From assembly GCA_945901615.1 (NCBI GenBank), contig CAMDLI010000010.1:1-40231 (forward strand): a DNA stretch of 40,231 nt, written 5' to 3'. This stretch comes from Spirosoma fluviale (GTDB taxonomy: Bacteria; Bacteroidota; Bacteroidia; Cytophagales; Cyclobacteriaceae). The notes under the pieces are model-generated. The model did no database searches, was not told the origin of the DNA, and worked only from the letters and a program-made list of their open reading frames with translations. A program made the translations under genes and the position numbers. This document shows, piece after piece, positions 3,363-5,242 of the stretch; the stretch's first letter is position 1; the number at the start of each line of letters is the position of its first letter.

Positions 3363-3390
3363 AAAAAAGCAGCCGGGTGGCTGCTTTTTT
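3363..3390 (-). terminator. Rho-independent terminator of tRNA-like RNA 1
   Basis: A 12-bp stem (GCAGCC paired with GGCTGC, extended by six A-T pairs) closes a 4-base loop and ends in a T-run when read on the minus strand. It starts four bases after the presumed discriminator base of tRNA-like RNA 1. The structure is symmetrical and could stop transcription from either side. Confidence 0.85.
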
Positions 3391-3393
3391 TTG

Positions 3394-3533
3394 CTGTAGG
3401 GGAAGGATTCGAACCTCCACGCGGCAGTTAGGCATGAACTTTTTGAAACATGCTTTATCCCATTCCGATCTTTACGACCGTCATCCCCACCCCCGAGACA
3501 GGAGGGCTTGTCTGCCAATTTCAACACCCTACA
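3394..3533 (-). ncRNA. tRNA-like RNA 1 (140 nt, class II-like body with a 71-nt variable region)
   Basis: On the minus strand a perfect 7-bp acceptor stem (3533-3527 with 3401-3395) encloses nearly complete tRNA landmarks. These are U and G at positions 8-9, a 3-bp D stem with an 11-base loop of leucine-tRNA type (AAATTGGCAGA), a 5-bp anticodon-like stem (3506-3502 with 3494-3490) with a 7-base loop, and a 5-bp T arm with the canonical loop TTCGAAT (3413-3407). The anticodon position reads GTC (Asp) after U33, but base 37 is T rather than a purine. Between anticodon arm and T arm lie 71 bases (3489-3419), where normal tRNAs have at most about 24; they can form two 5-bp hairpins (3480-3466 and 3453-3432). 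CCA is not encoded. A promoter box and a terminator flank it. A leucine-type D arm with an aspartate anticodon argues against an ordinary tRNA. It could be a repurposed tRNA, a decoy, or a decaying gene. An automated search might label it tRNA-Asp or undetermined. Confidence 0.65.
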
Positions 3534-3585
3534 AGATGTTTAATTTCTAGTACTACTTTTTTGTTGGCCTTAATGCTAACAAAAG

Positions 3586-3593
3586 CAAATGTA
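3586..3593 (-). promoter_or_regulatory. -7 promoter box of tRNA-like RNA 1 (TACATTTG)
   Basis: Exact match to TAnnTTTG on the minus strand. Transcription would start near 3580, giving a 5' leader of about 45 bases before the acceptor stem at 3533. No clear -33 TTG at the usual spacing. Confidence 0.6.
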
Positions 3594-3792
3594 TAGAAAA
3601 AGCAGATTTAATTAAAATTAATTTAATAAATAGTTTATTTTTTTATTGTTTTTTTATGTGAATGGCATTTTCGTTGCTGTTTTGACATTCAAATGGGGGT
3701 TAAAAATTGGAAAAATTGTCGTTTTGGAAATTTAGAGGAGGCCAGAAAACTCAAAAAATAACCGATCAGCAGCTTCGATTTAGGCAAATAAA
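3594..3792. other. AT-rich spacer between the two tRNA-like RNAs
   Basis: Very AT-rich sequence (runs of A and T around 3600-3660) between the promoter of tRNA-like RNA 1 and the terminator of tRNA-like RNA 2. I see no reading frame, repeat or further RNA fold in it. Confidence 0.5.
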
Positions 3793-3820
3793 AAAACCAT
3801 GAAAAAAATTTCATGGTTTT
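3793..3820 (-). terminator. Rho-independent terminator of tRNA-like RNA 2
   Basis: A 12-bp perfect stem (AAAACCATGAAA with TTTCATGGTTTT) and a 4-base loop, followed on the minus strand by a T-run (3792-3787). It lies about 30 bases beyond the 3' end of tRNA-like RNA 2. Confidence 0.75.
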
Positions 3821-3851
3821 AGTCAATTAACAATAAACCCAAAATAACCTG

Positions 3852-3958
3852 TTGTAAGAGAAGGAGTTGAACCTTCAAATAAACAAACACAAAAAAATTG
3901 TTTTTGTTTTCTTTTCCTTAATTGACTTCTTCTTTTGTCAATTATTTTTTGCCTTACA
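3852..3958 (-). ncRNA. tRNA-like RNA 2 (107 nt, expanded-arm cloverleaf)
   Basis: On the minus strand, 3958-3952 pairs with 3859-3853 as a 7-bp acceptor stem (one G-U), extendable by one more pair. A perfect 5-bp T arm (3876-3872 with 3864-3860) holds the canonical loop TTCAACT. In place of D and anticodon arms there are two other hairpins: an 8-bp stem (3944-3937 with 3926-3919, 10-base loop) and a roughly 12-bp stem with one mismatch (3909-3898 with 3892-3881, 5-base loop). There is no recognisable D loop or anticodon. Its last 28 bases match those of tRNA-like RNA 1 at 22 positions, and acceptor pair 5-68 is A-T here and G-C there, a compensatory change. Own promoter box and terminator. 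The central part is extremely AT-rich. It is probably a diverged relative of RNA 1; function unknown. Confidence 0.55.
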
Positions 3959-3988
3959 ATGCTGTTGCCGTTAAAAACTTCAACAAGA

Positions 3989-3996
3989 CAAAGGTA
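3989..3996 (-). promoter_or_regulatory. -7 promoter box of tRNA-like RNA 2 (TACCTTTG)
   Basis: Exact TAnnTTTG on the minus strand, 30 bases before the acceptor stem of tRNA-like RNA 2, so the primary transcript would carry a leader of about 25 bases. Confidence 0.6.
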
Positions 3997-4138: not shown

Positions 4139-4207
4139 TGAGCCTGTTTGTTAAAAAACTGTGTTTTTAAGCACTTGAATTTCTCCTTTTTCAAAAAAAC
4201 AGGCTCA
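4139..4207 (-). terminator. Long-armed terminator overlapping the rluD stop codon
   Basis: Arms TGAGCCTGTTT (4139-4149) and AAACAGGCTCA (4197-4207) form an 11-bp stem around a 47-base loop. The loop itself holds a 7-bp hairpin (TTAAAAA with TTTTTAA). On the minus strand the stem is followed by TTTTTT. One arm includes the rluD stop codon. Confidence 0.6.
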
Positions 4208-5242
4208 GTCTACCTGCACATACTGCTCCCATTTCTGCAGGACTGTTGAAAAATCTGCTGGCAGAGGTGCTTCAAAATAGAGGTTTTTCTTAGTAATGGG
4301 GTGCACAAATCCCAAACTCATCGCATGCAGAGCCTGTCGTGGCATGGCGTCAAAGCAATTGTTGATAAAACTCTTGTATTTGGCAAATTGAGTGCCTTTT
4401 CGAATTTTATCCCCCCCATACATGGCGTCATTGAATAATGGGTGCCCTAAAAATTTAAAATGCGCCCGGATTTGATGAGTTCTTCCAGTTTCTAAGGTAC
4501 ACTGAACCAAAGAAACGTAACGGAGCCGCTTCAAAACTTTCCAGTGTGTAATTGCATGTTTACCTTGACTCCCATCTGGAAATACTTCCATTACCTTCCG
4601 GTCTTTGGCGCTACGTCCCACATGCCCTACGATAGTACCCTCTTCCGCTTCTGGTTCACCCCAAACCAAAGCCAAATAAGTTCGCTGAATGGTATGGTAA
4701 AAAAATTGAGCTGCCAATGGCGCCATGGTCTCTTCTGTTTTGGCAATCACCAACAAGCCCGAGGTATCCTTGTCAATCCGATGAACTAAGCCAGGTCGCC
4801 CCACATTGCCTTTCATTTCAGGCAGGTGCTGAAAGTGATAGACCAGCCCATTTACCAAAGTTCCAGACCAATTGCCATGAGCCGGATGGACGACCATTCC
4901 TGGAGGCTTATTGACGACCAATAGGTCCGTATCCTCATAGACAATGTCCAATGAAATATTCTCCGAAATCACCTCGGTATCTCGCGGGGGCTTCTCTAGC
5001 AGCACCCGAATGTCATCTAGGCCTTTGATCTTATAATTGGACTTTACCGAATGTCCATTGACCTGAACTCCCCCCGAATCAATGGTCTGCTGTACCTTAT
5101 TTCGGGTAGCATTCGCAATTCGTTCCGTTAAAAATTTGTCAATCCGAACAGAAGACTGTCCTTTGTCCACCAAAATACGATGGTGCTCATACAAGGCTAA
5201 CTCATCTTCTTCCAGGTCTTCGTCCAAGTGCTGTTCGATCAT
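4205..5242 (-). CDS. rluD: 23S rRNA pseudouridine synthase, RluD family
   Basis: 345 residues. An acidic N-terminal extension (residues 6-14) leads into an S4 RNA-binding domain (about 30-85), followed by the pseudouridine synthase domain. The catalytic motif HRIDKDTSG places the nucleophilic Asp at residue 157; NKPPGMVVHP (111-120) and the GRTHQIRAH element near the C-terminal third are also typical. RluD makes pseudouridines in helix 69 of 23S rRNA; the S4 plus RluA-type architecture fits RluD best, but RluC-like specificity cannot be excluded by eye. It is transcribed divergently from the PLP-dependent enzyme at 5290 across 47 bp. A TATTTTTG box at 5254-5247 lies so close to the ATG that a transcript from it would be nearly leaderless. 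Confidence 0.9.
   Translation of the reverse strand: MIEQHLDEDLEEDELALYEHHRILVDKGQSSVRIDKFLTERIANATRNKVQQTIDSGGVQVNGHSVKSNYKIKGLDDIRVLLEKPPRDTEVISENISLDIVYEDTDLLVVNKPPGMVVHPAHGNWSGTLVNGLVYHFQHLPEMKGNVGRPGLVHRIDKDTSGLLVIAKTEETMAPLAAQFFYHTIQRTYLALVWGEPEAEEGTIVGHVGRSAKDRKVMEVFPDGSQGKHAITHWKVLKRLRYVSLVQCTLETGRTHQIRAHFKFLGHPLFNDAMYGGDKIRKGTQFAKYKSFINNCFDAMPRQALHAMSLGFVHPITKKNLYFEAPLPADFSTVLQKWEQYVQVD

Follow-up and report, generated by a model that had tools for sequence, protein, structure and literature searches.

Two tRNA-like units downstream of rluD

The window, the whole 40,231-nucleotide stretch of DNA analysed here, belongs to a 2.4 Mb host genome (181 contigs, estimated completeness 75%) and carries two minus-strand RNA units downstream of rluD (4205-5242, minus; PF00849 and S4). 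Their features are:

3394-3533, minus: RNA1, a tRNA-like RNA, with U1 at 3533, A72 at 3395, discriminator G73 at 3394 and then C at 3393 (R1 model, 127.8 bits; alignment)
3508-3524, minus: D arm of RNA1, with a TTG/CAA stem, GGCAG in the D loop and no extra base past position 20 (alignment)
3490-3506, minus: anticodon-like arm of RNA1, CCCTC-CTGTCTC-GGGGG, loop at 3501-3495 (alignment)
3421-3488, minus: extended variable arm of RNA1, with a basal stem, a GGATAAA / CTAAC internal motif and a distal hairpin (alignment)
3402-3418, minus: T arm of RNA1, GGAGG-TTCGAAT-CCTTC (alignment)
3586-3593 (3593-3586), minus: promoter-like -7 box of RNA1, TACATTTG, exact TAnnTTTG
3363-3391, minus: terminator-like hairpin of RNA1, A/T-rich stem (read from sequence)
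3852-3958, minus: RNA2, a diverged second copy, with acceptor (U1-A72, G2-C71) and T arm kept, A73 and no GUC loop (R1 model, sequence reading)
3989-3996 (3996-3989), minus: promoter-like -7 box of RNA2, TACCTTTG, exact TAnnTTTG
3793-3851, minus: conserved 3' trailer of RNA2, GGTTATTTTGGGTTTATTGTTAATTGACTAAAACC..., and terminator at 3820-3793 (consensus terminator scan, comparison with relatives)

A sequence-only reading of this DNA had described two minus-strand tRNA-like units, each behind an exact TAnnTTTG box, and both units and both boxes are present; the minus strand of the whole window holds 18 such boxes. A covariance model, R1, run on the window with filters off, finds RNA1 at 3533-3392 with 127.8 bits, a score that is partly by construction because RNA1 is among the 36 sequences from which the model was built. 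RNA2 is matched at 3958-3850 with 21.0 bits (E 0.0005), and a third match (E 0.83) is at chance level. The terminators that had been placed behind both units fared unequally: that of RNA2 (3820-3793) is listed in the consensus terminator scan of the window, while the hairpin of RNA1 (3391-3363) is read from the sequence and absent from the scan. The agreement of the last 28 bases of the two RNAs at 22 positions holds by eye with ends at 3392 and 3850, and drops to 20 with ends at 3394 and 3852.

The cores had been called unlike any tRNA, a description that RNA1 contradicts: it has a D stem, a GGCAG D loop and a seven-base anticodon-like loop, CUGUCUC, with U33 and U37. The odd part is its 68-nt variable arm, whose basal stem has one mismatch in the window's lineage. 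The fold energy of RNA1 is no better than that of shuffled sequences (z -0.5), so the case for it rests on covariation and not on energy; RNA2 does fold better than its shuffles (z -3.1).

ARAGORN and Rfam at gathering thresholds return zero matches in the window, and Rfam at E up to 10 returns weak matches only, the tRNA model not among them. As for tmRNA, the Rfam model reaches 5.8 bits over 11 nt in the window and ARAGORN calls none there. Whole-genome searches of G000, G034 and G130 with the Rfam tRNA model RF00005 behave likewise: the RNA is absent from the 112 matches that they list (32, 40 and 40). As the comparisons below establish, RNA1 is a member of a large covarying RNA family missed by ARAGORN and Rfam.

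A conserved and covarying fold

Two routes, blastn and a pattern, led to the relatives of RNA1. Blastn across 145 genomes, the window's included, shows that RNA1 is conserved, often with a second copy nearby. Copies from 50 loci gave alignment A1, which keeps 36 sequences (<93% alike) from a set of 69 unique ones and drew on a search pattern anchored on the D and T arms. The family folds into a 7-bp acceptor, a 3-bp D stem, a 5-bp anticodon-like stem, an extended variable arm (4-bp base and three distal-hairpin pairs in A1) and a T arm with a 5-bp stem. Under this structure 97.2% of the cells of A1 are paired, 11 of 27 pairs change on both sides, and the structure beats all 500 shuffles and all slid controls. 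A larger alignment, A3 (137 matches, 133 distinct, out of 100 chosen loci), has 20 of 27 pairs changing on both sides across the 133 distinct host members, in an alignment that leans to the structure since it was fitted to the model; the distal helix is its weakest, with 73.9% paired.

The change of pair 5-68 from G-C in RNA1 to A-U in RNA2 had been offered as a sign of selection on the fold, and the host members uphold it, with 90 GC, 41 AU, one CG and one GU. U1-A72 and G2-C71 never vary and are therefore uninformative on pairing, though informative on sequence. The earlier idea of a family of tRNA-mimicking RNAs, with promoter-like boxes of their own and a fold under selection, is thus borne out.

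Second copies are normal in relatives with larger genomes, which have two full members at this place, the second with a conserved distal loop, TAGCGAGCTCGT, and the trailer GGTTATTTTGGGTTTATTGTTAATTGACTAAAACC. The window's lineage, made up of small genome bins, has retained the trailer, acceptor and T arm of RNA2 and lost its D arm, loop and G73, so that RNA2 is either repurposed or decaying. We also observed that the 3' trailer of the second copy (3851-3805, minus, in the window; L016-L030, L090 and L170) is more conserved than the RNA2 body. The alternative allowed by the sequence-only reading, namely a tRNA duplication in decay or an attachment site, may hold for RNA2 in the window's lineage; for RNA1 it is contradicted by conservation across the order and by covariation, and as an account of the RNAs it is extremely improbable.

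Distribution in bacteria and phages

A covariance-model search of 98 sampled genomes of the window's order found R1 matches of at least 75 bits, our threshold for calling a genome of this sample RNA-positive, in 79, with up to six copies in tandem; the conservation of the RNA1 fold expected of related genomes is thus found. Three genomes stand outside this count: G088, whose 63-bit match is an ordinary tRNA-Leu, G570, whose member is cut by a contig end (63 bits), and G098, whose member lacks the variable arm (67 bits). Counting the last two gives 81 of 98. In a phylum-wide sample, where RNA-positive means an E below 1e-15, 40 of 395 genomes have such a match; next below come the true member of G098 (67 bits) and then matches of ordinary-tRNA size at 62 bits or less. 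The pattern scan of named genomes gave at least 119 stretches, all but one titled Bacteroidota, and the carriers among the matches listed include Hymenobacter, Spirosoma, Dyadobacter, Pontibacter, Chitinophaga and Saprospiraceae.

The family pattern also matches 89 viral stretches; 88 of them give R1 members, one of which is truncated at its 3' end. By ARAGORN, 54 of the 89 loci contain one tRNA or more, 36 at least three and 14 at least ten (a few of the calls being RNAs of the second phage family described below), and 13 contain a tmRNA. Searches of ten viral-locus proteins against PHROGs returned a terminase large subunit (L217 and L227), a DNA ligase (L272), an RNA ligase (L255 and L259) and a helicase (L202), with one of the ten giving no match; at least those loci are therefore phage contigs. 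The L217 query had no match among 50,697 named-phage records.

Viral variable arms carry a GACCAC motif, often GGGTTGACCAC, for instance in L201, L214, L216, L245 and L267. By eye, 10 of 16 non-redundant viral arms with GACCAC have a perfect palindrome of 8-12 nt just after it and two more have one of 6 nt; the palindromes vary in sequence. The GAGCTC loops of Algoriphagus and Cyclobacterium form a second palindrome group, again by eye. Dimerisation as a general feature of the family was rejected: the longest palindrome has a mean length of 6.2 in 99 non-redundant variable arms, from an analysis that drew on 195 of 200 distinct members, and of 5.9 in shuffles. For the phage forms only, the palindromes suggest that the RNAs may dimerise.

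Phage members L205, L206, L209, L228, L229, L239, L241, L243, L246, L254 and L286 have D-loop insertions that look hairpin-like by eye. A second, separate phage family has constant tRNA-like ends, AGTCAGGTGGCG...ACAGGTTCGAATCCTGTCCTGACTAC, and hypervariable cores, with examples on the minus strand of L214 (5128-5276, 6141-6262, 6476-6616 and 7681-7830) and in L355, L377 and others. Its 3' end matches 162 times in the collected loci, 128 of them with the 5' end within the preceding 320 nt, and a scan gave at least 120 stretches; there are 100 distinct molecules (<85% alike), mostly of 71-183 nt, with several copies on some phages.

Aspartate and amidation determinants without decoding marks

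A review (PMC9976931) gives the bacterial Asp set as G73, G10, G34, U35, C36 and C38, with G2-C71 minor and G1-C72 helpful, and states that U1-A72 makes Asp-tRNA open to amidation, while G1-C72 and U20a prevent it; U1-A72 is the element read by GatCAB (PMC4206432).

All 133 distinct host members have U1-A72, G2-C71, G73 and C74; G10 occurs in 9 and G1-C72 in none. Their loop reads C118/U15 at position 32, T105 G12 A8 C8 at 33, G120 A6 C5 U2 at 34, U in all 133 at 35, C in all 133 at 36, T126 C6 G1 at 37 and C132 U1 at 38, counts that are biased because the pattern behind the host (at least 119) and viral (89) loci fixed parts of the D and anticodon arms, U35, C36 and C38 included (A2 comes wholly from such loci, A3 partly and A1 not at all). 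U35, C36, C38 and C32 are invariant also in A1, whose sequences were collected without a loop-fixing pattern. Among viral members, 64 of 67 have U1-A72 and three have A1-U72; one viral row lacks the 3' end.

These bases are not a general property of host tRNAs. U1-A72 is present in the one host tRNA-Asn and the one tRNA-Gln examined, but in the 55 other distinct host tRNA calls it occurs three times, and never together with G2-C71 and G73. Host tRNA-Asp has the loop CUGUCAC, which is the commonest family loop except for A37, together with G1-C72 and, by eye, U20a; host tRNA-Glu has CUUUCAC, and the family loops are these two with a pyrimidine at 37. In the tRNA rows of G000, G034 and G130, C follows the discriminator in 78 of 82, so the genes encode CCA at least up to its first C, as in the family. 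The member of G098 has lost its variable arm and has a changed anticodon stem, and keeps U1-A72, G2-C71, G73 and the loop CUAUCUC; these bases thus look like the working part.

Judged by its sequences, the family carries the GatCAB determinant alongside those of bacterial AspRS. With U1-A72 and without U20a (the absence of base 20a in the GGCAG D loop was read by eye), the RNA has the features expected of a GatCAB substrate. NUC anticodons would specify Asp (RUC) or Glu (YUC). Both of these acidic amino acids are amidated by GatCAB, and this would account for a variable position 34 next to nearly fixed 35, 36 and 38.

The family departs from decoding tRNAs, which have both U33 and a purine at 37: a pyrimidine stands at 37 in 132 of 133 host members and position 33 is other than U in 28. 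For comparison, 358 of 360 distinct tRNA calls in the collected loci have U33 and 356 have a purine at 37; the four exceptions include the G098 member and two RNAs of the second phage family. The RNA therefore looks chargeable and amidatable but non-decoding. A tRNA-Asp variant active in translation would account for a commonest loop that differs from that of host tRNA-Asp at 37 alone, and for phages keeping the RNA beside tRNA genes; against it stand the bases at 37 and 33 and the presence of ordinary tRNA-Asp genes in G000, G034 and G130 and, among phages, in arrays like those of L239 and L255, and we regard it as very improbable.

Charging by SerRS deserves only slightly more credence. A class II tRNA of the serine type, like allo-tRNAs and tRNA-Sec, would be recognised through G73, G2-C71, R4-Y69 and the long variable arm, and R4 in 127 of 133 members, with G2-C71 and G73 in all 133, fits the bacterial Ser set given in PMC9976931. 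However, all members have A72 and not C72, C11-G24 is found in 17 of 133, the reading gives no role to the invariant U35-C36 and C38, and an armless member exists in G098.

An AsnC-type regulator and GatB accompany the RNA

The commonest neighbour among the 119 host loci listed is an AsnC-type regulator, found at 63 and always divergent. In the order sample of 98 genomes, drawn regardless of the RNA, 77 have both RNA and regulator, two the RNA only, four the regulator only and 15 neither (Fisher p 3e-12, or 4e-8 without the reduced family f21; shared ancestry inflates the strength of these tests, as of those for GatB). The four regulator-only genomes include G098, bearer of the short member; G088, with a weak AsnC match (1e-40), was scored absent, and would make them five if scored present. 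Gene positions transcribed by hand show the regulator gene adjoining the RNA in 54 of the 77 genomes, divergent in 54 of 54 with gaps of 121-333 nt; in the other 23, the window's included, it is encoded elsewhere. The best NCBIfam match of the regulator is AsnC, at 169.7 bits under a cut-off of 227; among solved structures, E. coli AsnC (2cg4) comes closest to it. PMC8707732 describes E. coli AsnC as activating asnA and being damped by Asn, and local regulators of its family as often divergent from their target.

An ungapped motif search of the AsnC-RNA interval, on 52 of the 63 AsnC loci, returned TTGAAttATTTncAA at width 17, and with more starts the motif became TAnCTTTG followed by CATCA, which by sequence is the promoter box itself. 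Since the box is the motif, the constant distance seen in 50 of 52 loci is built in, and the motif was rejected as an AsnC operator. In upstream regions outside adjacent loci, by a crude adjacency filter, 67 of 126 beat their own shuffles at 5%. The window's RNA1 scores poorly (-0.4), having the box without the CATCA part.

All 40 genomes that are RNA-positive in the phylum sample encode GatB. Within the class but outside the order, 83 listed genomes (a table that omits up to three) divide into 23 with RNA and GatB, none with RNA alone, three with GatB alone, two of these having a weaker gatB match (about 1e-105), and 57 with neither; in families f23 and f24 the presence or absence of the two agrees in 10 of 10 and 13 of 13 listed genomes. 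In the order sample the association is weak (77 with both, two RNA only, 16 GatB only, three neither; p 0.05), and 16 of the 19 genomes scored RNA-negative there encode gatB; in other classes it is common to find gatB where the RNA is absent. G567 has no gatB match and its member has lost the GUC loop; G548, a 690-contig assembly, has an intact RNA and no gatB match.

No avoidance of asparagine synthetase was seen: TIGR01536 (Asn-synthetase-like) is above cut-off in 88 of 98 order genomes and AsnA is present in 7 of 98; AsnRS is found in 97 of 98. A GlnRS match is present in 43 order genomes, 39 of which have gatB, and 37 of these 39 are RNA-positive. The comparisons as a whole point to AspRS, GatCAB and the AsnC-type regulator as candidate partners.

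The other recurrent neighbours among the 119 host loci listed are genes that we take to encode SufB (30), an AMP-binding acyl-CoA synthetase (23) and SufC (17). They form a long-lived suf-asnC-RNA synteny, with sufB/sufC-like genes behind asnC and the acyl-CoA synthetase downstream of the RNA (L186 and others).

A proposed role in making asparagine

From the fold, the determinants, the missing decoding marks, the promoter boxes and the linkage to the AsnC-type regulator and GatB, all of which emerge from comparison, we infer a non-decoding RNA on which Asp is loaded and then amidated to Asn, with the AsnC-type regulator adjusting its supply, and we put this at a little under an even chance. 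A promoter of its own would drive RNA1, whose transcript would undergo tRNA-like processing, with CCA completed after G73-C74. AspRS would charge it with Asp through G73, G2-C71 and the G34-U35-C36-C38 loop, and GatCAB, reading U1-A72, would amidate the Asp to Asn on the RNA. The pyrimidine at 37 and the bulky variable arm would keep it out of translation. The Asn would then be released or handed on, and the AsnC-type regulator, often encoded divergently alongside, would tune the supply.

Several observations count against this Asp-acceptor reading: Asn-synthetase-like genes (88/98) and AsnRS (97/98) are widespread, genomes with gatB and without the RNA exist, G34 is replaced in 13 of 133 members, G10 is rare and G1-C72 absent, the regulator falls below the cut-off, and the comparative data point to no enzyme for Asn release.

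The same determinants and the AsnC linkage would also serve an RNA that binds AspRS, GatCAB or both, charged or not, and so reports or damps Asp/Asn metabolism at a level set by the AsnC-type regulator. Asn-synthetase-like genes in most genomes suit such a sensor or decoy, as do up to six tandem copies, which a titrating RNA might have; the invariant G73-C74 and complete acceptor are more readily explained if the RNA is charged than if it only binds, and we think this role possible but rather unlikely.

Non-translating tRNAs serve as aminoacyl donors in cell-wall synthesis. An Asp- or Asn-RNA might likewise supply a ligase acting on a lipid, a peptide or a small molecule, which would explain non-decoding marks together with acceptor determinants; among the most recurrent neighbours of the 119 host loci listed, however, no aminoacyl transferase was recognised, and this use of the RNA seems unlikely.

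Extended to the phages, the Asp-to-Asn proposal becomes more tentative. The RNA would be a metabolic carrier on which AspRS and GatCAB remake Asp into Asn under end-product control by the AsnC-type regulator, phages would carry their copies as auxiliary metabolic RNA genes, and the RNAs of many phages would dimerise via their variable-arm palindromes, perhaps scaffolding an amidation complex.

If the proposal is true, bacteria keep this RNA to make an amino acid and not to translate, and it could explain why GatCAB is retained in genomes with both AsnRS and GlnRS. The set of clues is unusually full, covering charging, amidation, marks against decoding and a linked regulator, and the tRNA and RNA-family tools used missed a gene family that most sampled genomes of a large order, and many phages, carry.

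Comparison with known systems

Non-translating tRNA-like RNAs are already known as a kind, and we found none of them to share the combination seen in this family. Neither the literature searched (bioRxiv and most subscription papers lay outside its reach) nor Rfam held a description of the family.

The closest parallel to the proposed function is tRNA-dependent Asn synthesis by AspRS and GatCAB on tRNA-Asn, as in Deinococcus, Thermus and Bdellovibrio (PMC4206432), which shares the Asp determinants and U1-A72 and in which AsnRS and GatB genes coexist in genomes. In contrast, the carrier here would be a separate RNA, without decoding marks and with a GUC-type loop usable by a discriminating AspRS.

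tRNA-Other of Bacillus cereus (PMC3399842) is likewise a tRNA-like RNA outside translation; it differs in its Trp anticodon, its poor lysylation in vitro and its occurrence in some Bacilli. The bacterial Y RNA YrlA (PMC8394870) also has 90-150 nt and D, T and acceptor-like arms, but its 5' and 3' ends pair in a large basal stem that tethers Rsr, whereas those of the family form a 7-bp acceptor with G73-C74; Rfam gave no YrlA match in the window. tmRNA (PMC8363625) shares a tRNA-like end, and some phage loci carry both RNAs; where tmRNA has an mRNA-like domain, the family has an anticodon-like arm. The long variable arm and unusual anticodons are shared with allo-tRNAs and tRNA-Sec (PMC7609411), whose acceptor domains have 12 or 13 bp (8/4, 9/3 or 8/5), whereas the family alignments fit 7+5.

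As for the regulator, E. coli asnC-asnA (PMC8707732) likewise has an AsnC-type regulator divergent from its neighbour; there the neighbour is the gene of asparagine synthetase A, and here it is the RNA gene.
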